Source of the DNA: a virus
Reading direction: 5' to 3' (one strand)
Length of the DNA stretch: 22,335 bases
IMG/VR virus record: IMGVR_UViG_3300025674_000444
Coordinates: 1 to 22,335 of that record
The translations under genes and the position numbers were made by a program. Under the pieces are notes generated by a model. That model saw only the letters and a program-made list of their open reading frames with translations. It did no database searches and had not been told where the DNA came from. Below, one piece after another: positions 4,002-21,364 of the stretch. Numbering within the stretch: the stretch's first letter is position 1; the number at the start of each line of letters is the position of its first letter.

Positions 4002-4027
4002 TATTTGTCCCCCTAAATATGCGAAAT

Positions 4028-4064: not shown

Positions 4065-4090
4065 GGATTTTTAAAATTTGCTGGTTAATT

Positions 4091-4118
4091 TTGTGTATAG
4101 GTAAGCAAAAAATACAAT
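4091..4118 (+). promoter_or_regulatory. Possible sigma70-type promoter upstream of the 4152 gene
   Basis: TTGTGT (4091-4096), a 16-base spacer, then TACAAT (4113-4118). It follows the terminator-like hairpin and precedes the 4152-4856 gene trio, where a restart of transcription would be useful. The match is imperfect and AT-rich DNA gives such matches by chance. Confidence 0.3.
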
Positions 4119-4151
4119 ATTAACAAGGGGGACAATAAACTTGGAGTTTAT

Positions 4152-4343
4152 ATGTCAAAAGAAAAACAACCTGATGAAGTTCAAGTAAATATAAATGAAC
4201 AAGGTCAAGTTCAAATATTTAAAAATGAATATGGAACTTTTTATTTATATAATGTAGACTTTTTACCTAATGGTAAAGTAGATGTAGAAAAAGCTGCTCA
4301 AACAGCAAGGTTTCATATGAACAAGTTAAACAATGAAATTTAA
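4152..4343 (+). CDS. Small hypothetical protein
   Basis: 63 aa, with GGAG five bases before the ATG. The sequence is mostly short beta strands (VQVNINEQGQVQIF; GTFYLYNVDFL) ending in a helix (EKAAQTARFHMNKL). No family is recognised. It is the first gene after the structured gap and overlaps the following nuclease-like gene by 11 bases, so the two are probably translated together. Confidence 0.6.
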   Translation: MSKEKQPDEVQVNINEQGQVQIFKNEYGTFYLYNVDFLPNGKVDVEKAAQTARFHMNKLNNEI

Positions 4344-4689
4344 TTCAGACTTTAGTCACGATTTAGAAATAGGAAAAGTAGCAGAAGAAAAGTTAGCTGA
4401 TATTTTAGAAAATCAAAAGATTGAAGTTAAAACAGACTTAAAGGCAAAACAAACTGGTAATGTTTTTATTGAGTTTGAATCAAGAGAAAAATTATCAGGA
4501 TTATCTACAACTAAAGCTAAATGGTGGTTTAACTGGATTGATGAAGACATTGGAATATTAATTAGCACTGATTTATTAAAACAAAAATTAAATGATGCTA
4601 TTGAAAATGGAGAAGCAAGAATTGTATCTGGAGGAGATTGTAACACATCCAAAGGAGTACTAATAAGTAAAAGTAACCTAATAAAGTAA
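4333..4689 (+). CDS. Putative PD-(D/E)XK-type nuclease
   Basis: 118 aa. Near the N-terminus, DLEIGKVAEEKLADIL (10-25) is the acidic helix usual before the core. IEVKTD (30-35, E31 and K33) is an E-x-K metal site, followed by TGNVFIEFES (41-50) and SGLSTTKAKWWF (55-66), a combination typical of small phage and restriction-type endonucleases. The C-terminal strand pair (GILISTDLLKQKL) fits the fold. It could degrade host DNA or process phage DNA. It is the second nuclease of this block. Fold assignment is by motif; the substrate is unknown. Confidence 0.55.
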   Translation: MKFNSDFSHDLEIGKVAEEKLADILENQKIEVKTDLKAKQTGNVFIEFESREKLSGLSTTKAKWWFNWIDEDIGILISTDLLKQKLNDAIENGEARIVSGGDCNTSKGVLISKSNLIK

Positions 4690-4691
4690 AA

Positions 4692-4856
4692 ATGAAAAAA
4701 GAAGAAGTAGAAAACGTAATTAAATTGATAGGAAAAAACAGTTTAAGGGCAATGATGCTTAAATTAAGGAAAGAAAACAACAAATTAAAGCGTAATGCAA
4801 AAAAAGTTATGGAATCCTTAAAAAAAGATGACGAGAATGCCCCTATAAGCTCATAA
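4692..4856 (+). CDS. Small lysine-rich helical protein (54 aa)
   Basis: 54 aa, starting MKKEEVENVIKLIGKN, two bases after the stop of the preceding gene. It is very rich in K, E and N, with a heptad-like run (MLKLRKENNKLKRNAKKV, 22-39) that suggests a short coiled coil. There is no clear ribosome binding site apart from purine-rich AAAGTAAAA, so coupling to the upstream gene is likely. It is the last rightward gene; T8 at 4861-4868 follows the stop and may contribute to termination although no strong stem precedes it. Confidence 0.5.
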   Translation: MKKEEVENVIKLIGKNSLRAMMLKLRKENNKLKRNAKKVMESLKKDDENAPISS

Positions 4857-4866
4857 AATGTTTTTT

Positions 4867-4894
4867 TTGATATAACTATCGAATAAAGTATAAT
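4867..4894 (+). promoter_or_regulatory. Consensus-like sigma70 promoter pointing into the convergent junction
   Basis: TTGATA (4867-4872), a 16-base spacer, and TATAAT (4889-4894): five of six and six of six matches to consensus. The expected start site is near 4901. No gene lies downstream on this strand; the transcript would begin with the 4900-4943 hairpin and run antisense to the end of the giant gene. Confidence 0.5.
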
Positions 4895-4899
4895 CTCTT

Positions 4900-4943
4900 G
4901 ATATAAGCGGGATTATGGACGAAAACCTATCCCATATGGTATC
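4900..4943 (+). other. Hairpin at the convergent junction, possible small RNA or bidirectional transcription stop
   Basis: GGGAT (4909-4913) pairs with ATCCC (4929-4933); inside, GG (4917-4918) faces CC (4926-4927) across loop ACGAAAA; outside, ATAT (4901-4904) pairs with ATAT (4934-4937), or GATA (4900-4903) with TATC (4940-4943). It lies exactly where a transcript from the TATAAT box would start. No T-run follows on either strand, which argues against a standard intrinsic terminator. Confidence 0.4.
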
Positions 4944-7900
4944 TTATTCTTCAACCTGACCTTGCATTTCTTCTTCCATAGCTTCTTCCACTGCTTGACG
5001 ATTTTTTTCTACTTCTTGACCAATTCTATGCAAAGGAATACCTGTTAAAAAGTCAAATGACATAGCAGGAGACTTAATAGACCTATATCCATCACGCAAC
5101 AATCTACCACCAGGTATCCAGGTTGCTGCTTGATATTTCATAAAGTTATCAAACTCTCCAGTAAGCAATGAACTGATAGGAGCTAATACAAATCTACTAA
5201 TAGGTGGAGTAACTACTTGTAAAGGAGCCAATGATGTATGGGGCCAAGAACTAAAGAAAGCTCTCTTTCTATCTTCTTTATCACCAAACAACCATTGTGC
5301 AGTATCTTGCATCCAGGACATAGGTGGTGACAATGCATATTCAAACATAGTTCCAACAAATATACTTGCTAAAGCCATAGACATTAAATCAGCAGTAAGT
5401 TGTCTTTGGAATCTTTGCTGTGCATCTGTATTTAAAATAAACTCACCATATTTTGCACCTTTATAAAGATTTCTTCTTCTCTTGATACTGTTCCAAGCAT
5501 AAGGATGGAAACGTGTCATAACTCTACCTAAAGCAGTATTAGAATAATTTGTTCTATAAGCTGAGTGATAAATATACTGTGAAGCTTCAATACCTTTACG
5601 AGCCATATCAATTAAGAATGGTGAATCCCAATCCATTTTACCTTTCTCAATTAAAGGTAATGCTGTTTGTCTAGCATTTAAATAATGTGCAATACCAGCA
5701 GTTCTACGTAAGATTCTTTCAGATATTTGCATTGGTTTTGCACCTAATTGTACAATAGCTTCTCCTACATTATATCTTTTTTGTAGTTCATTAATAGATA
5801 ATTTTAATTCTTTTTCTGCTTCTACAGGATTCATACTCAATTCAAAGTTTTCTTTTTCCCATTTACCAAATCTTTTAGCTAATGCTGTTGCAAATCTTTT
5901 AGCTTCAGCACTTTGTAATCCTTTATTCAATCCTACTTCTTCAAGATAAATACCTTCCATCAAACCTTTTTGTACAAACACACGTTCAATGTCTTTTAAG
6001 TTTTTAACTTTTTCTTTTTTAACTTGTCTTGTAATAGGGTCTATTATTTCATAGGTAGCATTACCAAATACTTCTTCTATCAAGTATTTTTCATCCATAG
6101 CTTTTCTCATAATATCTCCACCTACATCAGCGTAAATATTAGTACCACCACCAAAGAAATTAGCAATCATAGTTTTAGGGTGAAACAATAGTGACATCAA
6201 TTCATAACGACCTTCAAAAGCACTAAAGGCATTTAATTTTTGTGCTAAAGCAATTCTTCTTTCAGATTCAGGCATAATAACATCTTCACCTGTAATAGAA
6301 CTTTTTCTTACTTTTAAGTCTTTAAAGAAACTAAATTGTCCAGGTTTATATCCCATTGCACTACCAATACGTTCTTCCATTCTACGTATTGCATTAACAG
6401 CAGATTCATCACTAAACACGTGGAAAGCAGTTCCATATCGTTTAATTTTATTAATATTTTTGACATCATTTAATTTATTAGCAGCATCCATACGTGCTTT
6501 TTCTATAGCTGTTTTTAATTCTGTTCCTTTCAAAGAACTATTATAAATTAAATCTGAATCAGCTGCAATTGTTTCATCTACTTTTCTAATAAATTCTCTT
6601 TCATTGTAACTTAACTTACTGTTTCTATTTTTTGTAAGTTGTTCTATTTTTAATCCAGATGCTATATAATCTTCTAACAATACTTTTTCTTTAGCTGTAA
6701 ATCCATCTCTATTTAAATCTACAAATGAATCAATACCAAGTTTTGTATTTAAACTTAGTTTCATATAATTAGCCCAAGCTTCTGTATGTTCTTTATCTCC
6801 AATAGCATCTTTTCTTACAAATCTATCAATATACATATTTCCACGAATACTACTTAAAGTATCAGTATATGCTTTTACAAATCCTCTAGTATAATCTTCT
6901 AATATTTTATTGGTTTTTTCATAACCTAACAAAACATGCTCACTTCTACTCTTATTAGAACTATTAGTAAATGCTGCTTGCATTTTATTAGTATTAAAAT
7001 TAATTAAACGTTCACTAAACATAGTATCTTCATAAGATTTTACAGACATTTCATGTGTCTTGCTTGTAATAAACTCATTAACAGACATATCAATATACTT
7101 TTTCATTTCTCCTGCTGTTCCATCTTCTTGCATAAACTTTGCACGAGTATTAGGCATAAATGATTTATATCCATACAATTCTATTTTTTTACGATGTTCT
7201 AAAGCTAAATGCTTAATATGATTTTCAATATTCTTATAATTACCAGCCGCTTTATTAAAACCTAAATGTGGCCAATAATTCTCTACTGAATCTTTTGTAT
7301 TCGTAATAGTTTGAATAGGTACAAATGGTCTTTCTTTATTATATTTTTGTATTAAAGCTTTTGCTGCATCAGGTATAGGTTTTCTTTTTTCCATAATATC
7401 TTGCAAGTCAATACCTAAATCTTTATTAACTTGTTGTCTTATTTGATAATGATGTAAAATAAAGTTTAATTCATTTAATCCAACAACATTAGCAGCAGTA
7501 CTATCAATAGTATTTGATTTTTCAAGCACACTTCTAATACGTTTAAACACTTTACCATCATTTAAAATACCATCAATCAATAAATTATTTTGTATAGATG
7601 GGCTAATATTCCATTTGCCATTTATCTTTTCCATACCACGTCTATTTAATTCTTTATACCATTCAAAAAATGCATCTCTTGCTTTGTTTATTTCAAAAAC
7701 ATATTGTTCTACAGTAATAGTTTTTAAATTTCCAGGATTTTCAGGGTCTTTAATAACAATTTTATCTCCTGTTGCTTTTTTAATGTCTTCAAGTTCTTTT
7801 AAAGCTCTTTGAAAACTTGCATCAAAATATTTTTTAGAAAATTTATCGTATTTTACATTAGTATTATCATATCCAGCTTCTCTAAACTCAGTAGCAATAT

Positions 7901-10900
7901 GCTCTAATTCTAAATTATATTTTTTAATGTTGCTATCTCCAGAGCTTTGGAAATTAAACAAAGCACTTCTTCTATTATTTTCGTGGTCAATCAAAGCAGC
8001 AACAATTCTTTTTCCATGGTCAATAACATCTACATTCAGTTCTATAGTATTAGTTGGAGAAATAACACTTTTTAAATTAGTTTCTCCAGTAATTCTGTCG
8101 TAAACAGGTACGTTAGTTTTTTGATAACTTAACATCTCTTGTTTTTGTAACTGATACAAACCTACACTACTATAAAACCAATAGTGTACACCACGATTAA
8201 ATGGAGATTTATTTTTTGCTTTCTCTACTTCAGCTGGATTACTTGCATCTTTAATGCCTTGTAACTTTTCAAACAATTTAATTTTATTAGTTAAACGAGA
8301 ATCAGGACCAACATAAATATCTTCTACCATATTTAAGAAAACATCCAGTTCTTGTGCAGTCATTTGTCCAGCTTCAACACCAAGTCTTGCTTGACCTTTA
8401 ATACCAATATTACTAAAGAAATCAGCAATATTACCTTCCATATCAATTAACAACTTAGGATTCTTCTTTATAAGTTTTTCCCAACGTTGTAATGATTCTA
8501 TTTGCTTTGTAGTCAATACTAACTGACCTTCAGGTGTTTTCATACCTTCAGTAATATCAAATATTTCAATCATTTCTTGAGGATTTTCTAAAAATCTTTT
8601 TTGCTGCTCTACAGGTTTATCACTTAATTTAGATAAAATACTTGACTCTAAAACTTCTTGCATTTCTATTTGAGATTTAGTTTCTTTAAGTGTAGATAGT
8701 AAATCATCTAATTCAGTTTTTTCAAACAATATAGCTTCTTTAGCATCTTCTTTATTTATTTCTCTTTTTAATGGAGTTATATCACCTTCTAAAGTAGCTT
8801 TCACTAATTGTACTGCAGATGAACGTTTACGTGTATCTTCACTTGTAAAATCTAATTCTAATTGATTTTTCAAATTATCCATAGGTTTTACTTTAGGTAA
8901 ATCTACTTTTACTTCAATAGCATTTTGATTAGTAGTTTCGGCTGCCTCAAATATATTTCTAATTTCAGTCATAAATTCTTTTTTATGGCTTAAAGGAATA
9001 GATTCTTTTCTAATTAATCCTGTATCAAACATACCTTGTTGAGTAGCGTACATGTTTAAAGTATTTAAACTTTTATATAAAGAAGCTTCATCTGCACCTG
9101 AATTAATTTCACTTTGTACTCTTTCTAATGCATTTCTTCCAAATCGTTGTAATGAATTAATTCTTTCTGATTGTATCATTTCAGGAGATAATCTAGATTG
9201 AATTTTATTTAATTCTTCAATTTGTTTATCTAAATAATCAGGGTCTAATTTAAATCTTTCTTCTAATTCAGATTTTAAATGGTCAAAATACTGTGACTCT
9301 CTTATTCTGCTAGATGGTTCTGGTAATATATTAGATAGCAATGTTTTACTAAATATATTACTTAAAATACCACGTTGTTCTGCATTTAACTCAACACTAC
9401 CAATATTATTTAATTTTGTATTTCTATACTCTTTAATTTTAGCATCAACATCAAATGATTCTATTAACCCTTTTTTATGTAAAAAATTATTTAATTTTAT
9501 ATCATAAGCTACATCTAGCATTTCTGCTATTTTATTATCAATCATTTTAACTTCAACACCAGATTGATATAAAGACTGTCTTAAATCATTATATCTTAAA
9601 GCTAAATTATTTAAAGCAGCAACATTTAACATTTGTTGTAAAATATGCTCTTCTTGATTTACTTGTTGAAAAAGTTTTTTACCATTCTTTTCGTTTCTAA
9701 AATGTGTATTAGTAGCTAATATTTTATCCCATAAAGTTTTTAATTCTTTAATAGACATATCAGCAGCTTTCTTATCTCCACCTGCTATTTTATCAAAATA
9801 CATTTCATTTAACAGCAAGTCTTTAGATAGCAAACCTCGATTCTTTAAATGGTTGTAAAAATGTGTTTTGCGTAATTTGGTATGTGCTTTTCCTAAATTA
9901 GCAATAAGATTAGTATATTGTGATTGTGGAACAACTTGTATATCAATAGTAAGAGTATCATTAAAATATCCAGAAGTTTCAAAAGGTTCTGATATAATTT
10001 TTGCAGTTTCAGCTAAATGATTATTGTATAAGTCACCAGTACTCTTATCTGATATAAAATCTTCATAAAATTTATTAGCCATTTGACCAATTTCATTAGG
10101 TCTTAATCCTTTAACATCATCACTATTCATTCCTTTTTCTAAAGCTTTTTGAAATTTTCTTCTAGATACTAATTTATCATTTAATGTACCATAAATAGTA
10201 GTCATACTAATTTTTTTTGAATTAAACAAATCTTGTAATTTAAAAGATTGTATATCCATTAATTCTAGACTTGTTTCATTTGGGGTAAAATTAAGAGTAA
10301 TTTCTTTGTTGGTTTCGTTAATATCAATAATTTCACCAAAAAGTCTTTTAGATTGATTTTTAAGTTTATTTAGTTTGTTATTAATATTATCTGCATATTT
10401 TTTATATAATTCTGGACGAGATTCTCCACCTGTATACATTTTATAATATTTTTCTTCAGGTAAAAAGAATAACTCTTTTAAAAGAGTATTTGTTAAATTT
10501 TTTGTATTAGGAGTAATTCTCATTGTTTTACCAAGAAAATAATATTCTCCAAATTGATTTTTAGAATAAATTTTTTCTCTAAAATCATTTTTTTCATTTA
10601 TAAACCGTATTTTTTCTTTTGGGTTTAATTTATTATATTCATTTCTTACTTCAGCTTCTGCTCTAGTCAATGTTTCTTTACCTATAAAACTAAACCAATC
10701 TATATTTAGTTTAGCTCCTTTTCTAGGCCAAGATATAACTCTATTATTATTATCAACTAATTCAAAATGTCTTTCTAGTATACTATTAAATTTATCACCA
10801 ACATCAGGATTACGAGTATTTTTTGCACCGTCTAAATCAAGATTTAAAGATATATCAGATTCATAATTATCAAAGTATTCAAAATGTTCTTTTAATGATT

Positions 10901-13900
10901 TTAAAGTAATTTTTTTCTTACCAGGCAAAGGAGCTTTTAAATCAGGGTCTTGATTTTGTACAATTCTTATAAAAATATTTTCAGCATTATTAATAGGAAA
11001 TTTTTTATCTGGACTTGATTCTATTAAAGTAAATAAATCTCTTACATCCTTATTAAAATTAGTACTTTTACCAATATTGCTATTTGCAGTATAAACATTA
11101 TCAGCTTGTCTAAATATATTATTTGGTTTAGTTATATCAGATACAAAATATGGTTCTAAATTTCTTTGATATCCCCACTCAGGAAACAAATTAACATCTG
11201 TTTTATCTTTTTCAACAAAATCTTTAGGTTTAAATTCTTTTACAAAATCTTTTGCTAATCCATGATAAACACCAACAGCATCGCCATCTGTATCTGCACC
11301 ACCTAAACGCTCCATATTTTTTGGAACAACGTGTACTCCTTTACCAGGTTGATTAGTAAACCCATTAAATGTTAAATTTAAAATACCACTTTGATTACCA
11401 ACAGGACTACGATTCATTAAAAAGTTTTCCATTACATCTTTTAATAAAGATTTAGTTTCTTTATCTTTTGTAGTATTATAAGTTTCCCATAATTTACCAA
11501 GCTCTACTTCTTTTGTTTTAAAAACTTTACGTAATTGTCCAAATATTTTTATTTTATCTGTTTTATGTCCATCATTTAACATAAAATTACTTTCATCTAA
11601 TCCTTGATTACGTAATTTTCTCCATAAAGAAGCATCTTGACTTTGTAATCTAGGATATGAAAATCCTGATGGAGCTTTTAAATTAGTTAAACGATTTCTT
11701 ACATACTTTGTAATACTTTGTTCAATGTATTTTTTATTACCATGAATCATTAAAATTAATGCATCATAATCAGCCATCTGTAATATTTCATTAATGCTGT
11801 TTAATTCTTTCATTTCAGCTTTTGCCATTTCAGAAGGTGTTCCATCTAGCATCATACCATCTTTTTCACCATAAATAGATTTCAAAATACTTCTACCAAG
11901 TTTACTATCTATGTTTGTATTTAATACATTAACAACTTCATACAAATCTAAATCAGAAATTCTAATCTTTTTACCATCAATTGTATCAAAATTATATCCA
12001 AAGTCTTTTATAGCATCATTATATTTTTTCATATAAGTTTTGCTACCAGAAATAGAATCAATAACCATTTGTTTATGTGCTGCTTTAAATTCTGGACTTA
12101 CAAAAGGACTTCTTGCATCAGCTGCACCATAATGCATTTGTGTTACATCTCTATTAGGAACTTCTATTTCAGAAGTAATTATGCGAATATGTTCTGGTTC
12201 TAATTCAATAACTTCAGGTTTAACTTCTTCAATATAACTATTAGTTTTTTCATTATACTTTAAACGCCCTATTTGGTGCCTAGAATTAGTTTTTAATGAA
12301 GAAGCATATACTACACCATCATAACCGTTATCCATAGCCCATTTAGCTAATTCTGGGCTTGCATGTCTTTCAGCTTGTTTAAAAATAATCAAACCTCTGT
12401 CATTTTCAAAATCAGCTTCTTTTTGTATTACAGATTTAATATAGTTTTCATTTTTGTTTTTACCTCTAGCTTCTTGTAAAGCATCTCTCCATTTACCAAC
12501 CCAATGCATAGCACCATCTGTAGTCATTTCACCAGCAGAATTAACAAAATCTTCAATTACTGCAACTCTTAATTTTCTACCTTGTAAATAATTATCAACT
12601 AATTCTCTATCTACAGTACGTCCACCATGAAATGTTTTACTATATTTTACAAAATCAATATAGTTTTTATATAATGGCTCAGCACCTTTTTGTATTGGGT
12701 ATCCATCTTTATTTTTTACAAAATATCCTTGATGTCTTCTAAAAGCTTTTATCCATTGTTCTAAAGTAACTTTGCTTAAATCTTTAGATATCATACCAGC
12801 ATCTTGTAACAAGTATGTTGCTCTAGATATTTTTTCTCTATAGTATTTTGCTGGGTCTTTATAAAAAGGACTTTCATATATAACTTCTTCATATCTCGGC
12901 ATATCTTTTAATGCTTCATAATAATCTTTATATACTCCTTTATTAACTAAATCCATAAGAACATTTTCACCTTTTCCTGTAAGACGTGATATGTCTTTTT
13001 CTAATACTCCAAAATTATCTGTAAAACTAGATGTATTTTTTTGGTATTCATATTTATTAAACAATTGACTAGTTTCTGTCATAAATTTATTTAATAATTG
13101 TTCTCCAAAAGACAGTTCTACTAAAGGTCTAGTAACTCCAATATTATTACCAGAATTAACATAATAAAGAAATCTTCCTTCTTCATGTAATAAATTTGAT
13201 ATATTTTCAAGATAAGTTGGTTTGGTTTGTAATTTAGATGCTCTACTAAAATCACCTTTATGTTCTTTTACATTTAAATAAGTTTCAAAGTTACTATCTT
13301 TATTAAGTCTATTATGAAATGAACCTTCATGAACAACTTCTAAATTTTCACCTTCTAAACTTTCTTTAGGTGCTTTTCCTATTTCAGTTTCATATTTTAT
13401 AGTTGGAACTTCTACTTCTATTTCAACTGTTTCTCCATTTTTTGCAGTAAATTTTTTTGTTACTATGTCTTTTGCTACTCGTATTGCTTTAAATTTTTTA
13501 CCACCTTGTACAAAATTTCCAGAACTATTAAAATAAATTTCATTTAATTGTTCATTACTAAATGGCATTTTATCATAAAATGTTTTTACATATTGTTTAA
13601 AAGTATCCCTATCATTAGCTTTAGTAGCAGCTTTTTTTATTTGCATAGCTATATCTAATGTTTGATAACCTTCTCCATACTGCTGATTTAATGCATCAAC
13701 AATAGTGTAAACAGGGTCATTGTCGCCTAAATAAGTATCATTATCTATATCAATTTCTTTATCATATTCAGTAGATAGTTTTTTAGGGTCTTTTGCTACT
13801 TCTCTTGCTGCAGTTAAAGTGTCAGATGGAATATCATTTATACGAATAGATTGTTCTCTAGCCATTGTACTTATTTTATTTTGACTAGTTAATAAATCAA

Positions 13901-15743
13901 TAGCTTTTTCTTGTTCAATTGTTTTATCTTTTACTTGTTGTAAAATATCTTTTTGTTTAGCATCTAATTCTTTTTTTAATTCTTGTAAATCTTCTTTACG
14001 TAAACTACCAATTTCTTTACCAGCAAATTTTTTAGATTGTTCTTTAGTTATTTTGCGTGTAGGGTCATATAAATTTTCAGTTATATACGTACTTTTATCT
14101 AAGGTAAAAATTTGTCCTGATTCATTTTTTATACGAACATTTCCATTTTTAAATACTTTATGAACTTCTACTGGTTCTACTCCACCAAAATTAGTAAACA
14201 CTTCAATAGTATCTCCAACTTCTAACATAGATTTATCTATATCAGGCATTGTTTCTCTAGCAGCCATTTCATTAGCTAATTCTTTTTCAAAATCAACTTG
14301 TAATTTTTCTTGTACTTTTTTTGTTTGTTCAGATAAAAATTTATTGAAGTTTCTTTTTTCTTGAATTTCAGTTCTTTGTTTTGGAGTTAATTCTTGATAT
14401 GATTTATTAGATACTTCAAGAAAAGCTTGTATAAAATCATTTCTTTCTTGACCTTCTGCAGGTGGTTCAAAAATAGTATTTTTATGATTTTCATATATTT
14501 CAGCTTCTCTTTGTTTTGCATATTCTTTTTGTTGTGGAGTAAATGTTTTCCAAGCTGTTAAATCTTCTGCAAATCCAACAGGAACATTTTCTTTTTGTCC
14601 AGTTGTTTTATCAATAATAACACTTTTATATATTTTATGACTATCTTCTCTAAATGCTTTATGTACATCTAATTCAGCTTTAGGTCTACCAGATGCACCA
14701 AAAAAGAATCCTAATAAATATTCATAAATTTGGTCAGGTGCTGGAGCACCTTGTACAGTTAAAGGAGCACCAGTAAAAGCAGAACCAGCAATACCTCTTG
14801 TAACCATATTAACAATATCTACTCCACCAGGACTTAATCCTTGACCTTTCATTGTTTTATACATTTCTAAAGCACGACCTTTAAGAATATTATGTGCCCT
14901 TAAACTCATTCCTACTTCTTTAGCAGCAAACATTTCTCCTATTTTAAGATAATTACTAATACCACCAAACACAGCACCAGCATATGCTCCATGTACTACA
15001 GATTGACGAACTGCTTCCCAATCACCAGATACTGCTGCTTTACGTGATGAAATAGCCATTGCTGCTGATAAGTGAGCAGATTGCTTAACCATATCAAGCA
15101 TACCAGGAGTCATTTTAGATAATAAAAAGTTATTTTTAAGAATTTCTGTACTACCAATAGCTGATGCTGCATTATCTACAAACCAATCAGCTACACGCAT
15201 TGGAACAGAACGTAATTGTAATTGTTTAATCTCTTTACCAGCTACTTTTTCAGTAACTTCTTTAGTTAATTGTGGTATATATTTTGCACCAAATTTACCT
15301 AAATTTTCTTGCACAGCATCAGCTGCTTGTTTTCTAACTAAATTAATTCCTTTTAAAGCACCACGTTTAGCTAATGGAGCAGTACCAAACGATAAAACAC
15401 CAGCAATAATATCGGGAGCAAATCCAATCAAATGCCCCATTTTATTTAATAAAGCTTCTGTTTCAGTCTTAGGGTCATCTGCATATCCAAAAGTAGTAAA
15501 TCCTTCTACTACACCACTAACTAACTGATTAACTGCACTGATAATTTTGTTTTCATCATCTTCAAGATTACGTTGAAATTGCATACCAATACCTTTAGCA
15601 GACTTTTCTAGTTCATCTAATTCATCACTAGAAAAATTTTCAGGACTTCTGTTATATAAACCTGTAGACATTTGTACAAATTTACGTTCGTCAAGAACTC
15701 CCTTATCAAGTAAGGTTTTATAATATTGATAGGTACTATTCAT
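4944..15743 (-). CDS. Giant virion/ejection protein with putative single-chain DPBB RNA polymerase core
   Basis: 3599 aa (about 410 kDa), uninterrupted. Visible layout: hydrophobic segments near residues 105-125, 225-265 and 315-345; a KOW/SH3-like strand set at 509-552 after a coiled coil and before another (560-620); GYDGVVY (1140-1146) and ELEPEHIRI (about 1178-1186), reminiscent of ADP-ribosyltransferase-like modules of phage polyvalent proteins; the polymerase-like region 1290-1645 (separate entry); long helical and coiled-coil stretches about 1700-2600; a LFHPKTMIANFFGGG element near 3180-3200; and a C-terminal part with RFHPYAWNSIKRRR and a membrane segment at 3450-3470. It is the last gene of the ejection-type cluster, where T7 has gp16, so it is probably packaged and injected with the DNA. 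The start is a TAATG overlap with no visible Shine-Dalgarno, suggesting coupling. Alternatives are a DarB-like or polyvalent protein without polymerase activity. Confidence 0.8.
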   Translation of the reverse strand: MNSTYQYYKTLLDKGVLDERKFVQMSTGLYNRSPENFSSDELDELEKSAKGIGMQFQRNLEDDENKIISAVNQLVSGVVEGFTTFGYADDPKTETEALLNKMGHLIGFAPDIIAGVLSFGTAPLAKRGALKGINLVRKQAADAVQENLGKFGAKYIPQLTKEVTEKVAGKEIKQLQLRSVPMRVADWFVDNAASAIGSTEILKNNFLLSKMTPGMLDMVKQSAHLSAAMAISSRKAAVSGDWEAVRQSVVHGAYAGAVFGGISNYLKIGEMFAAKEVGMSLRAHNILKGRALEMYKTMKGQGLSPGGVDIVNMVTRGIAGSAFTGAPLTVQGAPAPDQIYEYLLGFFFGASGRPKAELDVHKAFREDSHKIYKSVIIDKTTGQKENVPVGFAEDLTAWKTFTPQQKEYAKQREAEIYENHKNTIFEPPAEGQERNDFIQAFLEVSNKSYQELTPKQRTEIQEKRNFNKFLSEQTKKVQEKLQVDFEKELANEMAARETMPDIDKSMLEVGDTIEVFTNFGGVEPVEVHKVFKNGNVRIKNESGQIFTLDKSTYITENLYDPTRKITKEQSKKFAGKEIGSLRKEDLQELKKELDAKQKDILQQVKDKTIEQEKAIDLLTSQNKISTMAREQSIRINDIPSDTLTAAREVAKDPKKLSTEYDKEIDIDNDTYLGDNDPVYTIVDALNQQYGEGYQTLDIAMQIKKAATKANDRDTFKQYVKTFYDKMPFSNEQLNEIYFNSSGNFVQGGKKFKAIRVAKDIVTKKFTAKNGETVEIEVEVPTIKYETEIGKAPKESLEGENLEVVHEGSFHNRLNKDSNFETYLNVKEHKGDFSRASKLQTKPTYLENISNLLHEEGRFLYYVNSGNNIGVTRPLVELSFGEQLLNKFMTETSQLFNKYEYQKNTSSFTDNFGVLEKDISRLTGKGENVLMDLVNKGVYKDYYEALKDMPRYEEVIYESPFYKDPAKYYREKISRATYLLQDAGMISKDLSKVTLEQWIKAFRRHQGYFVKNKDGYPIQKGAEPLYKNYIDFVKYSKTFHGGRTVDRELVDNYLQGRKLRVAVIEDFVNSAGEMTTDGAMHWVGKWRDALQEARGKNKNENYIKSVIQKEADFENDRGLIIFKQAERHASPELAKWAMDNGYDGVVYASSLKTNSRHQIGRLKYNEKTNSYIEEVKPEVIELEPEHIRIITSEIEVPNRDVTQMHYGAADARSPFVSPEFKAAHKQMVIDSISGSKTYMKKYNDAIKDFGYNFDTIDGKKIRISDLDLYEVVNVLNTNIDSKLGRSILKSIYGEKDGMMLDGTPSEMAKAEMKELNSINEILQMADYDALILMIHGNKKYIEQSITKYVRNRLTNLKAPSGFSYPRLQSQDASLWRKLRNQGLDESNFMLNDGHKTDKIKIFGQLRKVFKTKEVELGKLWETYNTTKDKETKSLLKDVMENFLMNRSPVGNQSGILNLTFNGFTNQPGKGVHVVPKNMERLGGADTDGDAVGVYHGLAKDFVKEFKPKDFVEKDKTDVNLFPEWGYQRNLEPYFVSDITKPNNIFRQADNVYTANSNIGKSTNFNKDVRDLFTLIESSPDKKFPINNAENIFIRIVQNQDPDLKAPLPGKKKITLKSLKEHFEYFDNYESDISLNLDLDGAKNTRNPDVGDKFNSILERHFELVDNNNRVISWPRKGAKLNIDWFSFIGKETLTRAEAEVRNEYNKLNPKEKIRFINEKNDFREKIYSKNQFGEYYFLGKTMRITPNTKNLTNTLLKELFFLPEEKYYKMYTGGESRPELYKKYADNINNKLNKLKNQSKRLFGEIIDINETNKEITLNFTPNETSLELMDIQSFKLQDLFNSKKISMTTIYGTLNDKLVSRRKFQKALEKGMNSDDVKGLRPNEIGQMANKFYEDFISDKSTGDLYNNHLAETAKIISEPFETSGYFNDTLTIDIQVVPQSQYTNLIANLGKAHTKLRKTHFYNHLKNRGLLSKDLLLNEMYFDKIAGGDKKAADMSIKELKTLWDKILATNTHFRNEKNGKKLFQQVNQEEHILQQMLNVAALNNLALRYNDLRQSLYQSGVEVKMIDNKIAEMLDVAYDIKLNNFLHKKGLIESFDVDAKIKEYRNTKLNNIGSVELNAEQRGILSNIFSKTLLSNILPEPSSRIRESQYFDHLKSELEERFKLDPDYLDKQIEELNKIQSRLSPEMIQSERINSLQRFGRNALERVQSEINSGADEASLYKSLNTLNMYATQQGMFDTGLIRKESIPLSHKKEFMTEIRNIFEAAETTNQNAIEVKVDLPKVKPMDNLKNQLELDFTSEDTRKRSSAVQLVKATLEGDITPLKREINKEDAKEAILFEKTELDDLLSTLKETKSQIEMQEVLESSILSKLSDKPVEQQKRFLENPQEMIEIFDITEGMKTPEGQLVLTTKQIESLQRWEKLIKKNPKLLIDMEGNIADFFSNIGIKGQARLGVEAGQMTAQELDVFLNMVEDIYVGPDSRLTNKIKLFEKLQGIKDASNPAEVEKAKNKSPFNRGVHYWFYSSVGLYQLQKQEMLSYQKTNVPVYDRITGETNLKSVISPTNTIELNVDVIDHGKRIVAALIDHENNRRSALFNFQSSGDSNIKKYNLELEHIATEFREAGYDNTNVKYDKFSKKYFDASFQRALKELEDIKKATGDKIVIKDPENPGNLKTITVEQYVFEINKARDAFFEWYKELNRRGMEKINGKWNISPSIQNNLLIDGILNDGKVFKRIRSVLEKSNTIDSTAANVVGLNELNFILHHYQIRQQVNKDLGIDLQDIMEKRKPIPDAAKALIQKYNKERPFVPIQTITNTKDSVENYWPHLGFNKAAGNYKNIENHIKHLALEHRKKIELYGYKSFMPNTRAKFMQEDGTAGEMKKYIDMSVNEFITSKTHEMSVKSYEDTMFSERLINFNTNKMQAAFTNSSNKSRSEHVLLGYEKTNKILEDYTRGFVKAYTDTLSSIRGNMYIDRFVRKDAIGDKEHTEAWANYMKLSLNTKLGIDSFVDLNRDGFTAKEKVLLEDYIASGLKIEQLTKNRNSKLSYNEREFIRKVDETIAADSDLIYNSSLKGTELKTAIEKARMDAANKLNDVKNINKIKRYGTAFHVFSDESAVNAIRRMEERIGSAMGYKPGQFSFFKDLKVRKSSITGEDVIMPESERRIALAQKLNAFSAFEGRYELMSLLFHPKTMIANFFGGGTNIYADVGGDIMRKAMDEKYLIEEVFGNATYEIIDPITRQVKKEKVKNLKDIERVFVQKGLMEGIYLEEVGLNKGLQSAEAKRFATALAKRFGKWEKENFELSMNPVEAEKELKLSINELQKRYNVGEAIVQLGAKPMQISERILRRTAGIAHYLNARQTALPLIEKGKMDWDSPFLIDMARKGIEASQYIYHSAYRTNYSNTALGRVMTRFHPYAWNSIKRRRNLYKGAKYGEFILNTDAQQRFQRQLTADLMSMALASIFVGTMFEYALSPPMSWMQDTAQWLFGDKEDRKRAFFSSWPHTSLAPLQVVTPPISRFVLAPISSLLTGEFDNFMKYQAATWIPGGRLLRDGYRSIKSPAMSFDFLTGIPLHRIGQEVEKNRQAVEEAMEEEMQGQVEE
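10809..11876 (-). other. Putative RNA polymerase catalytic region of the giant protein (residues 1290-1645)
   Basis: Ordered motifs on the protein: EKDGMMLDG (D1295) and NLKAPSGFSYP (K1356), possible parts of a first double-psi barrel; then MNRSPVGNQSG (R1445, P1447) and GGADTDGDAVGVY with D1484, D1486 and D1488, matching the metal-binding D-x-D-G-D loop of beta-prime-like barrels; then ANSNIGKST (G1558); then NLDLDGAKN (D1638, K1641). QDE-1-like and crAss-like phage RNA polymerases show the same order: R-x-P, D-x-D-x-D, an IG element, and D-x-x-K. The second barrel is well supported by motif; the first barrel is a guess. T7-type polymerase motifs were not seen here. Confidence 0.55.
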
Positions 15744-16378
15744 TATTTATTTAAATAAGAGTAAGCATCTGATAAAATAGCCAGATACTGATTATATAAA
15801 CTTTTTTCACCTTCGTCAGCTTTTTTACTCATTTTTTCTTGAACAAAAGAATTACTCAAATCACTTTGCAGTTCAATAACTTCTTGCATTAAAGCTTGTC
15901 TACGTTGTCCAGAACCAGCAATGCCAGCTTTTTCTTGTTTTTGAACATTTCTTAACTCCATTGCAATTGTTTGTATACGTGGTGTAGCTACATCTAATAA
16001 AGACTTAGGTTCAAACTTTTTAAATACACGAAAGAATCTAAACTCTTCTCCAGGTTGAAATTCTCTTTGATTAAAAATACCTCGTTTTTTATCATATTTT
16101 TCTAAACCAGCAATAGCTAATGCAGACTCTGCTTCTGTTTCTGCTAAAGCTCTAGCAGCTGCTTTTTCTTGTTGTGCATAAGCTTCATCAGCAATCATAG
16201 ATTGCATTCTTAATTTAGCCATCATAGATTCAGCATCTAATAAAGCTTCTTTATTAACTTCTCTTTGTATTTCTAAACGTTCTCTATAAGCATCCAAACC
16301 TGTAGGTTCTCCTAACTGCTGTAAACTTTGTCTTAGTTCCCTAAAAGCTTTTACTCTTGATTCAAATAAATCTGCCAT
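15743..16378 (-). CDS. Helical internal virion protein, probable ejection protein
   Basis: 211 aa, with AGGAG six bases before the ATG. It is almost wholly helical, with coiled-coil-like stretches at residues 5-35, 40-95 (alanine- and glutamate-rich, EKAAARALAETEAES) and 140-180; a short strand region with EFRFFRVFKKFEP lies in the middle. There is no signal peptide or membrane segment. Its place between the gp14-like protein and the giant protein corresponds to T7 gp15, a tube-forming ejection protein, but no sequence similarity to gp15 was recognised. Its stop overlaps the giant gene start as TAATG. Confidence 0.5.
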   Translation of the reverse strand: MADLFESRVKAFRELRQSLQQLGEPTGLDAYRERLEIQREVNKEALLDAESMMAKLRMQSMIADEAYAQQEKAAARALAETEAESALAIAGLEKYDKKRGIFNQREFQPGEEFRFFRVFKKFEPKSLLDVATPRIQTIAMELRNVQKQEKAGIAGSGQRRQALMQEVIELQSDLSNSFVQEKMSKKADEGEKSLYNQYLAILSDAYSYLNK

Positions 16379-16387
16379 TTTTTTCTC

Positions 16388-16918
16388 CTATACGTATTTT
16401 AATGTATTCACATCACCAATATTAACTTCAGTAGAAGGTATGCCTTGTTTTGCATAATTAGCTCTAATTTGGTCAATATTTATTTGTTGTCTATTTAATT
16501 CACTTGCTAACTGATTTTGTGTTTGATAAATACTTCTTTGTGAAGAAAGATTAATTCCTTGTAAACGCTGACCTAATAACCCAGCCATTTGTTCACGTTG
16601 TACATTTTCTCTACCATATGCTAAACCAGTTTGTCCACCACTTTGCAATTGAAACATTGCATTTTCATAGATTTGAGCACCAGCAACATTTCCTTGTGCC
16701 CTATATAAATCTGCTTGTCTTTCATATTCAGACATTAATTCTGGAATATCTTCTTGGATTCTTCCAATACTTGCTTCCATTTCAGATTTCAATCTTTTTC
16801 TTCTTCTTTCTTCTGCTTTTCTAGCACTAAAATAACTAAATCCACCTATAATAACTGCTGCAGCTGTTACATAAGGATTAGCTTTTGCAAATTCGCCTAC
16901 TGCTTTCCAATCAGCCAT
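16388..16918 (-). CDS. Membrane-anchored coiled-coil virion protein, T7 gp14-like
   Basis: 176 aa. One transmembrane segment lies at residues 15-33 (PYVTAAAVIIGGFSYFSA), followed by a basic stretch (RKAEERRRKRLK) and long helices rich in Q, E and R to residue 155 (YERQADLYRAQGN; QTQNQLASELNRQQ). One hydrophobic helix plus coiled coil in about 180 aa fits the outer-membrane ejection protein class (T7 gp14). The start shares bases with the lysozyme stop (TAATG), and AAGGAG stands seven bases upstream. Role by architecture and context; a holin-like role is less likely given the long coiled coil. Confidence 0.55.
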   Translation of the reverse strand: MADWKAVGEFAKANPYVTAAAVIIGGFSYFSARKAEERRRKRLKSEMEASIGRIQEDIPELMSEYERQADLYRAQGNVAGAQIYENAMFQLQSGGQTGLAYGRENVQREQMAGLLGQRLQGINLSSQRSIYQTQNQLASELNRQQINIDQIRANYAKQGIPSTEVNIGDVNTLKYV

Positions 16919-17523
16919 TATTTATCTCCTTTATTTGATTTTTTTCTCATACCAAAACCGTAATACATTGCTGCATCCAAATTAAATTTCATAGCTAAAT
17001 CATCTGATAACACTTGATTTATTTGCATTTTTTGCATTTCTTCTTCACTTATAGTTGGTTGCTTCAATCCTTCAATTGCTTGTTGAAAATCATTTACTCT
17101 TGTTGGTGATTGTGTTTTCCATAATGATGGTTCACCTTTTGAAGTAGTATTGATTTCTTTAATAGCATCGTCATATCTTTTATCTTTCAATGCTTGATAT
17201 GCACTAGGAAATTTTTTATTCCAATTTTGTCCTAATTGAAAATTAACAGAAGTTAAATTTACTAAAAAATCTTCATTGTCAATACCCAATTCTTTTGCTT
17301 GTTTCATAGCAGCATTAACAGATGTTTCAGTATCTTTTTTATACCATTCTTCAATAACATTATCTGGAATAACATCACCTTCTTTGTATTTAACTAATTC
17401 ACCTGCTGTAAGTTTATGTCCTATACCAGCAGTTAAATTACCTGTAGAATCTTTGTATACTTTTGATTCGTTAGATTCTCTTTGTTCTAACAATGTTCTT
17501 AATTTATTATAAAATGTTTCCAT
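16918..17523 (-). CDS. T4-type lysozyme (GH24 muramidase)
   Basis: 201 aa. The catalytic triad is exact: E16, D25 and T31 with eight and five residues between, as in T4 lysozyme E11-D20-T26, in the context RESNESKVYKDSTGNLTAGIGH. VNFQLGQNW (93-101) and a C-terminal FQQAIEGL helix complete the fold by about residue 150. Residues 151-201 are an extra helical tail ending in KKSNKGDK. There is no signal peptide. Cleavage of peptidoglycan is expected. Its place among nozzle and ejection genes, rather than next to a holin, suggests a virion-borne enzyme that opens the cell wall at entry, although a lysis role at the end of infection is not excluded. GGAG precedes the ATG. Confidence 0.88.
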   Translation of the reverse strand: METFYNKLRTLLEQRESNESKVYKDSTGNLTAGIGHKLTAGELVKYKEGDVIPDNVIEEWYKKDTETSVNAAMKQAKELGIDNEDFLVNLTSVNFQLGQNWNKKFPSAYQALKDKRYDDAIKEINTTSKGEPSLWKTQSPTRVNDFQQAIEGLKQPTISEEEMQKMQINQVLSDDLAMKFNLDAAMYYGFGMRKKSNKGDK

Positions 17524-18312
17524 TTATATTTCTCCTCTAGCTCTTGCTGCATCATATTCTTCTCTAGTATTAAAACCTGCTTTTATATAATATGGAGTTG
17601 ATAGCCATTCATAAAGATAAGCTGCTCCTCCTCTAAGATAAGCTGGACCTGTACCAGTTTCTTTTGCTACGCTTTCAAATTTTTTTTTAAATGCTCCCTC
17701 AGGGTCATATACTTTCTTTATAATTAAATCTGTATTATTTTTAATTGATGCTGGATTTATTAATGTATAGTCACCATAAGTTAAGTCTTGACTAGCACCT
17801 GGTATATATTCAAATTTAGCTAAACGATTATAATTTGCATCTGCTTGTTTTTTAATTTCAGTCATATTTCTAGTATCAGGAGTTTTTAATTTAAATCTTT
17901 CTTCCATACTCTGTGTACCTATGCCTGATATGTTCATATTTAAATCAAAATCAGGAACAATATTGCCTTGAGCATCCATTTTATATTTCATATCAGCACT
18001 ATATGCATCTCCCAATCTTTCTTTAGCAATATTTTGAATAGCATCCCCACCAACATCTCCAATAGCTTTGCTTGTAATTCTACCGTATAATTCATCACTT
18101 TGAAATGGTTCTTGTTTACCTCTTAATCCTTCCATAAATGCTTCTCTTTTAGGTTCAAGCACCATTGCTGTTTGCAATGATTCAGAAACTTGTGTACCAA
18201 ATTTCATTGCCTGAACAAAAGGGTCATTAAATGCAGCTTCTTCTTGTCTTGCTGCTTCTAATAAACTTCCTATTCCACTACGATAAACTTCAACGTCTCC
18301 AATCCTAGCCAT
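17524..18312 (-). CDS. Putative virion protein, function unknown
   Basis: 262 aa. The N-terminal third is helical (GIGSLLEAARQEEAAFNDPF; TQVSESLQTAMVLEPKREAF), the middle is mixed (residues 100-190, rich in D, N and G), and the C-terminus has aromatic-rich AAYLYEWLSTPYYIKAGF and a final helix EEYDAARAR. No domain is recognised. It follows the nozzle gene and a 64-aa gene, and its stop abuts the lysozyme ATG (TAAATG). An internal virion or tail role is inferred from position only. Confidence 0.5.
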   Translation of the reverse strand: MARIGDVEVYRSGIGSLLEAARQEEAAFNDPFVQAMKFGTQVSESLQTAMVLEPKREAFMEGLRGKQEPFQSDELYGRITSKAIGDVGGDAIQNIAKERLGDAYSADMKYKMDAQGNIVPDFDLNMNISGIGTQSMEERFKLKTPDTRNMTEIKKQADANYNRLAKFEYIPGASQDLTYGDYTLINPASIKNNTDLIIKKVYDPEGAFKKKFESVAKETGTGPAYLRGGAAYLYEWLSTPYYIKAGFNTREEYDAARARGEI

Positions 18313-18506
18313 TACGCTTTCTCCAATTCTGTTTTATACCATTCATTATCAACCTTATAATACAAGTAAACTTGATTACCTTCCTTTACAATTCTTTTAC
18401 TACCACTTTTACCTTCACCAGTCTGTGGTTTTTCTGTAAAAACTTTAGCAGGTGTCTCCATCTGCTGTTTAACTTCTTCAATCATATCAAATACAATATC
18501 TTTCAT
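18312..18506 (-). CDS. Small hypothetical protein in tail module
   Basis: 64 aa. An amphipathic N-terminal helix (KDIVFDMIEEVKQQM) leads through a basic linker (EGKSGSKRIVK) into a small beta unit (NQVYLYYKVDNEWYKTEL). It is joined to both neighbours by TAATG overlaps, so it is translated with the nozzle and the 262-aa protein. A minor structural component or chaperone is possible; the sequence does not decide. Confidence 0.55.
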   Translation of the reverse strand: MKDIVFDMIEEVKQQMETPAKVFTEKPQTGEGKSGSKRIVKEGNQVYLYYKVDNEWYKTELEKA

Positions 18507-21364
18507 TACTTCACACTCTTTTCTCTAAATATTATTTGAATATCATTTACTTCAAAATTAAGAGCTACATTAGACCCAGAAAAACGCAGTCCAAACCCTT
18601 TCACTTTATCAAAAGCTTTTCTATTGACAAATTCAGTCTTAGCTTTTCTAAGTGGAATATGTAGAGTTTTAAATTCAGTCTCAGAACTACCATCTAATGT
18701 AGCTAAAAGTTCTTCTTCCCCATCATCTCTAAATCCATATAAATAAACACCATCTCCATTTTTATAGCTCAAATACACGCTTATTATTTTTTTATCGACA
18801 CTTGGCTTGCCAAAAGTAAATTCCTTCGTTTTAAGGGCAATCTCGTCAATATTTTGGCTATCTAGCTTACTAGGAGCAATAGAAAACTTACGTAATTCAA
18901 CATTTGTGCTATCATATTTGTCAAACCACACTAAAGTTCCATCATTAGCAGTAACAATATTAGTCATATCATTAGTGCTATTTCCTTTACTTCTGTAGTA
19001 TAATGCTCTAGCTTTTAAATCAAATGCAATTACTTTTTGATTTTTATTCAATATTAAAATAGTTTTTTCAATAGGGTCATAACCTATAACGTTATTTACA
19101 TTGTAATAATTAGACCAAACAAGTCGTTGTTGACCAGCAGTATCTAATAGTAAATCAGTTAATTGTCTACCATCATACAAATAAAACCCATATTCATTAA
19201 ACCAAGCAATAAATCCTTCACCACGTACAACGTGATAATCTTTTAAACAACCTTTATATTCCAATGTTGCTTCTAAAAACTCTATGTCTCTTGATATATT
19301 AATAATGTATAAATGATTACGTTTAAACTCTAATAATTTACCTGACAATGATTCTAGTGCTATAATATCATCACCGTCATTAATTTCTACATCTATTCTG
19401 CTTTCATAAGTAAATGTATCAAAAGCATTAACATTAGATTTAAATATAGTATCATTAGCAGTTTTTAAGTCTCCAGTTACAGGGTCAGAATATTTTACAT
19501 TACCAATGTATAATCTTCTATTTGCTACAGTACTAGCTTTATATCCTGTACCAAAAGCTCCCATAATATATTTACCATTATCAATATATACTTCTGCAGC
19601 TACATTTTCAGGTTTATCTTTTAATTCTATATTACCTAACAATATTCTATCATCATTAACAGTAGCTAACCCATACAAATATGATTGACTTGTTTGGGGA
19701 TAAGAAACTAAAGATTTTGATGCTGTTTGATGAACAATGCTATCAAATTTATAATAATCTTTTCCAGCAGCATAACGTATTCCTTTTCTAAAATCTACTT
19801 CAAATAATAAATACTTTATTCTATTCTTATTATAATCTTCTGCTGCTTGAGTTTGCGTAGTATCTTCTAATACATAATTAGCTTTTACTTCGCTATAATA
19901 AAACTTTACACTTTTTATATTGTCTATATCAGGGATTCTTCCCCATAAACTTGCATGTAAACATTGATTAACTTTTTCACCTTGTAATGTTGTTTCTAAT
20001 TTTAAAGGACTGACTTGATTATCCAAATAAACTATTTCACTATAAATATAAACTATACTATCTGTTGTACTAAAAAATGTACCACTATTATCATCAGGTA
20101 ATGAATCACTATTAGAATAAGGTCTATCTCCAGTCCAAAAAGCAACATTTAAATTACCTTTACCAGTAGATGAAGTACCTGTATAAAATGGATTAGAACC
20201 AACTTGAGTAATAGGAATACTATGCATTTCTCCCCATGTAGTATAATAAACATAAGAAATTGATGCTCCACTAGATATACTAGCAGGAGTTTCTACTAAC
20301 CCCCAAGCATTTCTAGTTGCTGTTAAAGTATTGCTTAATATATTTGTAACATGCATATACTCGCTTGTAATTTTAATTAAATCACCTATTTTAAACTTAG
20401 TTCCATCTGAAACAGTAAATGAAACAGTAGTGTCATTTGGAATATTCTGTGTAGTAGTTGCTCCACTATCTTGTATAAATTCACTACTTGTATATCTATT
20501 ACTAAAATTCCATACTTTAACTTCTGATTCTGTTACTTCTGGTAATTCAGTATTTAATTTTTTCCAACCTTTTACAGAAAATAAATGATTAGAGTTTGCT
20601 AATTGTTTATAAATATTTGCACCTTGTGGAATTGTTTGACCAAAAGCATCAAATTGTATTTCAGTATTTGTTACACCAGTTATCGTTACAGGATTACTTG
20701 AAATAGTATAAGTTTCAGAACCAATTGTAAAGCTATATTCAAATTTTACAATATCATCTATTGAAAAATCAGATGTTTCATCACTACTATCTGTTTGAAC
20801 TGATGTAGAAGTAGGACTAATAACAGAAGAAGTATTATAAGTAGTATCTTGAAATGATGTACTTAAACTATCATTACCCATATAATATTGTTCATTTATA
20901 TGTTGTAATTTAATTGGCTTATTAGTTTCCTGAAAACTAGTAGGTGTAATTCTTACTACTCCATCAACAGCACTATATACAACTGGAGAAAATGTATCTC
21001 CATAAGTAATATCTGTTCTTGATGAATATGTAAGTTTATCGCTATTTAATTCAAATACTTTAACATTTGGTGTATCTGTATTAATAAATAACATTTCATT
21101 ATTTTGTACGAATGCAGTTGTGTCATCAATATCGTAGTCTGCATTAAAATGAAATAAACCATTTCCATAATTAACCTCAGCATCTAAATCAGCAGGATTA
21201 CTAGCAGAATAATCTGTAGCAGCACCCATAATCTTTAACTTACCAGGTGTCTCTATGGAGAGTGTATCTAATGCTTCAAACTGATTGTCCTGTAAATCAC
21301 GACTATTAGTTTTGTTATTGATACCACCACTATAGTTTGATATGTTTAATATTCCCTTTGCCAC
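18506..21364 (-). CDS. Probable tail nozzle / tail tubular protein (T7 gp12-like beta-propeller class)
   Basis: 952 aa. The N-terminus ISNYSGGINNKTNSRDLQDN followed by a GKLKIMG segment matches the (F/Y)-S-G-G-x-N opening typical of podovirus nozzle or stabilisation proteins. The body is beta-rich with repeated aromatic-glycine blades (about residues 420-860, for example IAWFNEYGFYLYDGRQL and GTLVWFDKYD), and the end FEVNDIQIIFREKSVK is also typical. It would form the distal tail tube through which DNA passes. It starts at GTG, with AAAGG nine bases upstream; no better ATG lies near. The start lies inside the 47-aa ORF. The class call rests on termini, size, beta content and position before ejection genes. 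Confidence 0.6.
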   Translation of the reverse strand: MAKGILNISNYSGGINNKTNSRDLQDNQFEALDTLSIETPGKLKIMGAATDYSASNPADLDAEVNYGNGLFHFNADYDIDDTTAFVQNNEMLFINTDTPNVKVFELNSDKLTYSSRTDITYGDTFSPVVYSAVDGVVRITPTSFQETNKPIKLQHINEQYYMGNDSLSTSFQDTTYNTSSVISPTSTSVQTDSSDETSDFSIDDIVKFEYSFTIGSETYTISSNPVTITGVTNTEIQFDAFGQTIPQGANIYKQLANSNHLFSVKGWKKLNTELPEVTESEVKVWNFSNRYTSSEFIQDSGATTTQNIPNDTTVSFTVSDGTKFKIGDLIKITSEYMHVTNILSNTLTATRNAWGLVETPASISSGASISYVYYTTWGEMHSIPITQVGSNPFYTGTSSTGKGNLNVAFWTGDRPYSNSDSLPDDNSGTFFSTTDSIVYIYSEIVYLDNQVSPLKLETTLQGEKVNQCLHASLWGRIPDIDNIKSVKFYYSEVKANYVLEDTTQTQAAEDYNKNRIKYLLFEVDFRKGIRYAAGKDYYKFDSIVHQTASKSLVSYPQTSQSYLYGLATVNDDRILLGNIELKDKPENVAAEVYIDNGKYIMGAFGTGYKASTVANRRLYIGNVKYSDPVTGDLKTANDTIFKSNVNAFDTFTYESRIDVEINDGDDIIALESLSGKLLEFKRNHLYIINISRDIEFLEATLEYKGCLKDYHVVRGEGFIAWFNEYGFYLYDGRQLTDLLLDTAGQQRLVWSNYYNVNNVIGYDPIEKTILILNKNQKVIAFDLKARALYYRSKGNSTNDMTNIVTANDGTLVWFDKYDSTNVELRKFSIAPSKLDSQNIDEIALKTKEFTFGKPSVDKKIISVYLSYKNGDGVYLYGFRDDGEEELLATLDGSSETEFKTLHIPLRKAKTEFVNRKAFDKVKGFGLRFSGSNVALNFEVNDIQIIFREKSVK

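Follow-up and report, generated by a model that had tools for sequence, protein, structure and literature searches.

The giant gene of the window, by which we mean the whole stretch of DNA analysed (a complete IMG/VR virus record of 22,335 bases, classed as linear), very probably encodes the virion RNA polymerase of an undescribed short-tailed phage, a protein packed in the head and ejected with the DNA, with a catalytic core of the two-barrel type. An ejected giant protein that includes a polymerase had already been proposed in the initial annotation of this DNA, and the proposal is supported by the position of the gene at the end of the late operon, by the absence of cysteine throughout the family and by the signatures of two-barrel enzymes. 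Gene position, cysteine content, active-site motifs and family conservation were all read from the sequence.

General features of the giant gene

The gene occupies positions 4944-15743 of the minus strand, begins with ATG and encodes 3,599 amino acids (412 kDa); its start overlaps the stop of the gene upstream (TAATG). It had been described as a single unbroken ORF of 10.8 kb, and the frame is indeed open and conserved in full-length homologues with 42-58% identity over the whole length, which indicates that it is not a chance frame. By tblastn against 50,697 phage records, no homologue of the giant protein was found in any annotated phage record, and similar DNA is absent from annotated phage records. 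The protein has no match in PDB by HMM, nor in Pfam, PHROG or NCBIfam, and a KOW/SH3-like piece suggested earlier was not recovered in the latter three databases.

A family of giant proteins

Relatives of the giant protein were identified in about 40 further viral contigs, the complete ones having 3,099-3,917 aa. A first family scan yielded close fragments only, and true relatives then emerged in four contigs from a scan with the pattern GADTDGD. Full-length homologues include proteins of 3,551, 3,613 and 3,620 aa from the GADTDGD contigs and one of 3,917 aa. The deep family was collected with a DNA pattern for the invariant C-terminal peptide RFHPYAW, which retrieved 43 stretches; 38 frames from these loci match the family HMM, among them complete proteins of 3,099-3,241 aa with approximately 20% identity to the window protein in the core. 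A scan of bacterial genomes revealed no relatives.

Three blocks are kept throughout the family: the N-terminus (approximately residues 1-490), the core (920-1690) and the C-terminus (2740-3599). Between them lie variable stretches with lineage-specific insertions. The N- and C-terminal parts are conserved as much as the core or more, and the C-terminal 500 aa are the best-conserved part of the protein:

4998..6476, minus strand: aa 3090-3582, best-conserved part by family conservation; putative packaging/ejection domain

Structure modelling and comparison of the C-terminal 550 aa gave nothing usable. Regarding the insertions, the giant of L080 carries one matching PHROG 9995 (8.9e-23), and SLOG/DprA-like nucleotide-binding modules are found inside giants of different lineages, at aa 883-951 in L095 (PHROG 768, 3.5e-10) and, with weak matches, near aa 1950-2150 in L064 and near aa 6376-6497 in G005. 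These modules could possibly provide injected accessory or anti-defence functions. The initial annotation spoke of enzymatic modules in the plural; inserted modules do occur in some relatives, but in the window protein the polymerase alone is recognisable. In L098 (9174-12983, minus strand) the giant frame is broken into ORFs of 517 and 745 aa about 20 bases apart, by an assembly error, a frameshift or a true split.

Gene order and the ejection cassette

The late operon ends with the giant gene, which is preceded by a tail-region gene and then by five small genes, including one for a lysozyme. The giant gene converges on the replication genes, represented in the window by a primase-helicase and a resolvase-like protein. 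The genes of this module are:

4944..15743, minus strand: giant protein, 3,599 aa, 0 Cys; from its sequence a putative virion-packaged, ejected two-barrel RNA polymerase
15743..16378, minus strand: 211-aa Cys-free ejection-cassette protein, conserved directly upstream of the giant gene in the gene order of relatives
16388..16918, minus strand: 176-aa Cys-free protein with an N-terminal hydrophobic stretch, of T7 gp14-like size
16918..17523, minus strand: 201-aa phage lysozyme, a separate gene (PF00959; PHROG 'internal virion lysozyme motif')
17524..18312, minus strand: 262-aa Cys-free cassette protein
18312..18506, minus strand: 64-aa Cys-free cassette protein
18506..21364, minus strand: tail-region protein of 952 aa, conserved, at the upstream limit of the module within the window

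A 48-kb relative, G001, gives a longer view of this order: TerL, a P22-like portal, a protein in the scaffold position, the major head protein, small head-tail genes, a tail fibre, a metallophosphoesterase, a tail-region protein of about 900 aa, proteins of 71 and 236 aa, a lysozyme-like protein, proteins of 190 and 228 aa and the giant, with the replication genes running the opposite way. Its TerL has matches of approximately 25% to N4-like, cobavirus-like and other podophages. The same operon end is found in the window, in G002-G004 and in L064, L095 and L100. Since the giant closes the late structural operon wherever the flanks of a homologous contig could be read, the early-operon location of homologues that the initial annotation had named as evidence against its proposal is not observed. 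The 176-, 211- and 262-aa cassette proteins were also considered as homologues of T7 gp14, N4 gp51/52 and P22 gp7/20, and no similarity was found.

Several other elements lie close to this module. A calcineurin-like metallophosphoesterase gene (window 21460-22227, minus strand) adjoins the tail-region gene and is conserved in relatives; the crAss-like phage phi14:2 likewise has a metallophosphoesterase within its structural block. Between the convergent early and late blocks of the window there is a sigma-70-like site on the plus strand (4867-4894; TTGATA-16-TATAAT, 11/12), and the number of such sites in the window is not above that in shuffles. In L050 (G001 1-8000), four or five same-strand copies of AAAAAAAWAAARCATARAGATAAGA precede the late operon, at about 6000, 6614, 6789, 7086 and 7206 on the plus strand, and this repeat is a candidate phage promoter. 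No cluster of it occurs in the window, the counterpart region lying outside. Several relatives have genes starting with MKPLRDE or similar that lie behind the giant gene in convergent orientation (L100:13723-13983, L095:12683-12940 and L064:17553-17813, minus strand; L116:3436-3693, plus strand). In L100 the gene encodes a GroES/Cpn10 co-chaperonin (PF00166, 3.8e-16), and the other three are assigned by N-terminal resemblance. The window has no such gene at the matching place. This co-chaperonin could help to fold capsid proteins or the giant protein.

Absence of cysteine

There is no cysteine among the 3,599 residues of the window protein, in the four full-length homologues or in the 52,163 residues of the 38 homologous frames; at the loci of these frames, the other frames of 200 aa or longer contain 288 cysteines in 24,745 aa. 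The cassette proteins are also free of cysteine, with the exception of the G002 lysozyme, which has two. Among characterised phages, cysteine is absent from N4 gp50, gp51 and gp52, T7 gp15 and gp16, P22 gp7, gp16 and gp20 and the 5,002-aa tape-measure polymerase of P23-45, and the crAss001 cargo proteins gp46, gp47 and gp49 have 0-1, while most portals, spikes, fibres and terminases of model phages have several. In N4-like virion RNA polymerases (vRNAPs) the cysteine-free state has been attributed to passage through the tail and the periplasm (PMC3715699, PMC3915230, PMC2784036). The absence of cysteine over the whole family therefore groups the giant protein with known ejected proteins, an association and not a proof, as some non-ejected capsid proteins also lack cysteine. 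If the grouping is correct, zero cysteines in 52,163 residues could be a simple sequence signature of proteins threaded through a tail.

The probable polymerase core

The polymerase-like core reported in the initial annotation was confirmed and extended by the DxDGD, RxP and G-x3-N signatures and by a flank match to crAss vRNAPs. The elements of the core are:

11280..11294, minus strand: DTDGD, aa 1484-1488, by sequence the metal-binding DxDxD of the beta'-type barrel (DPBB-A); its three Asp are invariant in the family
11403..11414, minus strand: NRSP, aa 1444-1447, the RxP element by comparison with two-barrel RNA polymerases
11034..11126, minus strand: bridge-helix-like motif, aa 1540-1570, with G1558 and N1562 invariant in the deep alignment
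12156..12620, minus strand: predicted beta-type double-psi barrel (DPBB-B), aa 1042-1196, with invariant K1103, K1122 and K1151 (VIA on a low-confidence model)

In all known two-barrel enzymes compared, the arginine of RxP lies 35-39 residues ahead of DxDxD (NRAP in rpoC, YRVP in crAss001, YRIP in phi14:2, NRRP in P23-45 gp64 and FRNP in P23-45 gp96). That of NRSP in the window protein lies 39 residues ahead of DTDGD. When the motif flanks of crAss001 gp50 and the phi14:2 vRNAP were scored at every position of the family alignment, the motif itself being masked, the true site ranked first of 3,546. The downstream motif HQGKVQMGEIVN and similar ones in the family match TGAALIGIYAN of crAss001 and GGKSGVGITAN of phi14:2, and this counterpart is presumed from sequence to be the bridge helix. 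The invariant columns of the deep alignment include, in addition to the lysines, glycine, asparagine and aspartates (D1484, D1486 and D1488) listed above, R1445, P1447 and G1461-F1462. In one subclade DKDAD stands in place of DxDGD, with the three aspartates retained.

Sequence HMMs do not detect this resemblance. The best HHalign alignment to the crAss pair is in the active-site register at a probability of 4%, and Pfam RNA_pol_Rpb1_2 (PF00623) has no match in five records at E up to 10. In phages, significant sequence similarity between two-barrel families is often lacking outside DxDxD (PMC10770324). Shuffled pairwise alignments against rpoC, gp64 and others led no further, and their matches to contigs picked by GADTDGD, which are biased, were not counted as evidence.

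AlphaFold models were built from five-sequence alignments that predate the deep family, and both are poor (mean pLDDT 43 and 40). With the template-free core model, Foldseek placed 6vr4_A, the phi14:2 virion RNA polymerase, first of 350,542 PDB chains (E 0.09, probability 0.84), above E. coli beta' chains and QDE-1. VIA superposed aa 1042-1196 on residues 902-1105 of 6vr4_A over 145 residues (Z 7.3, 4.7 A), and also on QDE-1 677-786, E. coli beta and yeast Pol I B. The Z of 7.3 falls within the range of chance matches, and a Z of about 7 alone can be chance, so the case rests on the agreement of independent lines. Barrel B may thus tentatively be placed by the model at 1042-1196, preceding DxDxD at a distance similar to that in phi14:2, with K1103, K1122 and K1151 as candidates for its catalytic lysines. 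Of the four best hits in the viral library BFVD, only one is named, a structural protein from Azobacteroides phage ProJPt-Bp1, which we take to be crAss-like. An ADP-ribosyltransferase carrier was also considered, as residues around 1030-1195 resembled ART-PolyVal (Pfam E 0.33-0.37, one member each time), and was dropped because the structure comparison of 1042-1196 points to a double-psi barrel.

Alternatively, the giant could be an inner-membrane ejection protein like T7 gp16, acting as a DNA conduit without transcription, its polymerase motif decayed or coincidental. T7 gp16 is the largest ejection protein of its phage, lies at the end of the ejection cassette and is free of cysteine, as is the giant protein. 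The conservation of the N- and C-terminal parts, which equals or exceeds that of the core, and the DKDAD subclade would also fit a conduit. However, the three aspartates, RxP, GF, the lysines and G-x3-N are invariant at approximately 20% identity, which argues against a decayed domain. In addition, gp16 has its own muralytic domain and no polymerase, whereas the window lysozyme is a separate gene (16918-17523), and no similarity to gp16 was found. We therefore regard a gp16-like conduit as improbable. The statement that the gene occupies the slot of T7 gp16 holds approximately, but the gene order fits N4 gp50 better.

Even less probable is an RNA polymerase or other enzyme with large accessory domains that is made in the infected cell and never packaged. 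A precedent exists in P23-45 gp64, a two-barrel phage polymerase outside the virion (PMC10770324). In the present family, however, the gene is part of the late structural operon in each contig that was read, and a complete lack of cysteine over 3,100-3,900 aa is typical of ejected and not of cytoplasmic proteins. A packaged two-barrel polymerase accounts for the observations better than either of these alternatives.

Hydrophobic regions

Hydrophobic segments near both ends of the protein had been proposed as membrane regions. Both sites are found again in the family:

14736..15455, minus strand: aa 97-336, a conserved domain near the N-terminus and the least hydrophilic part, with a peak at aa 105-123 that the family retains; proposed to be membrane- or ejectosome-associated
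5343..5399, minus strand: aa 3449-3467, a hydrophobic segment near the C-terminus and a top peak in the hydropathy profile of the family

No other 240-aa stretch of the window protein is as weakly hydrophilic as residues 97-336, which lie beyond 498 of 500 shuffles (two shuffles reach the value here, and 6, 42 and 9 do so for three homologues). Among 19-residue Kyte-Doolittle windows, the best reach 1.42 at residue 105 and 1.57 at 3449, with a mean maximum of 1.86 in shuffled copies. The two top peaks of family-mean hydropathy fall exactly at aa 106 (1.63 over 40 members) and 3449 (1.51 over 8), marginal against column shuffles (33 and 76 of 500). For comparison, the maximum of T7 gp16 (1.44) is comparable and that of N4 gp50 (1.82) is stronger. 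The two ends are therefore the most hydrophobic sites of the family and 97-336 is mildly hydrophobic, but neither site stands out as a transmembrane helix. Clear transmembrane helices were sought, and no 19-residue window exceeds the shuffled maxima. With so weak a signal, the suggested anchoring at both ends is not supported. An N-terminal tether is plausible by analogy with the N4 model, a preprint proposal in which the polymerase and C-terminal domains of gp50 refold in the cytoplasm and the N-terminal domain keeps the protein attached (PMC12633501).

Comparison with known virion polymerases

N4 gp50 (Schitoviridae) is a better analogue of the giant protein than T7 gp16. It also has about 3,500 aa and no cysteine, and it is the last late gene, convergent with the early genes; the N4 order gp53-gp52-gp51-gp50, with small Cys-free ejection proteins preceding gp50, is the layout found at the giant gene of the window. 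Both proteins have an N-terminal domain, a central polymerase and a long C-terminal domain (PMC12633501). In contrast, the gp50 polymerase is T7-like and single-subunit, whereas the giant protein has a two-barrel DPBB core, and homology to gp50 was not supported by PHROG, Pfam, HMM or HHalign similarity.

The crAss-like vRNAPs (phi14:2 6vr4; crAss001 gp50) resemble the core. They are virion proteins with DxDxD, RxP, GF and G-x3-N in a single chain, and their barrel B precedes barrel A at a spacing similar to that predicted for the giant protein. Sequence identity to the giant protein is nevertheless at noise level, and the crAss001 apparatus is split over gp47, gp49 and gp50, with 1-3 cysteines each, whereas in the window one chain holds everything. 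The relatives of the window phage also differ from crAss phages in having an N4/cobavirus-type TerL and a P22-like portal. The core thus most likely has the crAss-like/QDE-1 polymerase fold and not that of N4 or T7, and the whole is most likely a giant ejected polymerase of the N4 kind that is built on a crAss/QDE-1-type core, from an undescribed podophage group of about 40 contigs.

gp96 of Thermus phage P23-45 is a virion protein of giant size that also lacks cysteine and has a two-barrel polymerase fused to it, with the motif DFDGD (PMC10770324). A similar fusion of tail tape measure and polymerase is very improbable for the giant protein, because gp96 belongs to a long-tailed phage, has its polymerase at the N-terminus and shows no sequence similarity outside the motif, while the polymerase core of the giant is in mid-protein. 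The G001 proteins tested also include a P22-like portal and an N4/cobavirus-type terminase, and no tube, sheath or tape-measure gene was recognised among them. T7 gp15/16, P22 gp16/20 and P23-45 gp96 were all compared as sequence homologues of the giant protein, and no similarity was detected.

As a virion polymerase, the giant protein would be made late and packed in the capsid, and we infer that it then leaves by way of the short tail, either ahead of the DNA or together with it. The small Cys-free proteins encoded just upstream would be co-ejected and form a trans-envelope channel, which the giant would follow, threaded as a partly unfolded chain; threading in a partly unfolded state has been argued for the crAss001 cargo (PMC10172136). 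In the cytoplasm, the chain would refold and transcribe the first phage genes. Catalysis would involve two double-psi barrels of one chain, barrel B (aa 1042-1196) with its invariant lysines and barrel A with D1484, D1486 and D1488. The conserved ends of the chain, the first 490 and the last 500-800 residues, may serve in packaging, in channel docking and perhaps in membrane tethering, as proposed for N4 gp50.

If this reading is correct, the protein represents a third giant virion RNA polymerase architecture, with the length and gene position of N4 and a two-barrel core, and the packing and threading of giant polymerases would have arisen with unrelated enzymes. Tentatively, a large group of undescribed aquatic podophages may have evolved the N4 solution independently, or swapped its core for a crAss/QDE-1 core, with SLOG/DprA-like modules in some chains. 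In that case the injected chain would act as a modular carrier, transcribing, and perhaps blocking defence, from DNA entry onward. Dozens of diverged natural variants could also reveal the domain borders required for packaging and refolding.

An even longer ORF was observed in G005 (IMGVR_UViG_3300032293_001294; 42594-67286, minus strand), with about 8,230 aa and zero cysteine. It carries SRSP...GADTDGD, the same active-site pattern, which was also noted for L030, L057 and L058, and its sequence makes it a candidate for a still larger virion polymerase of another phage.
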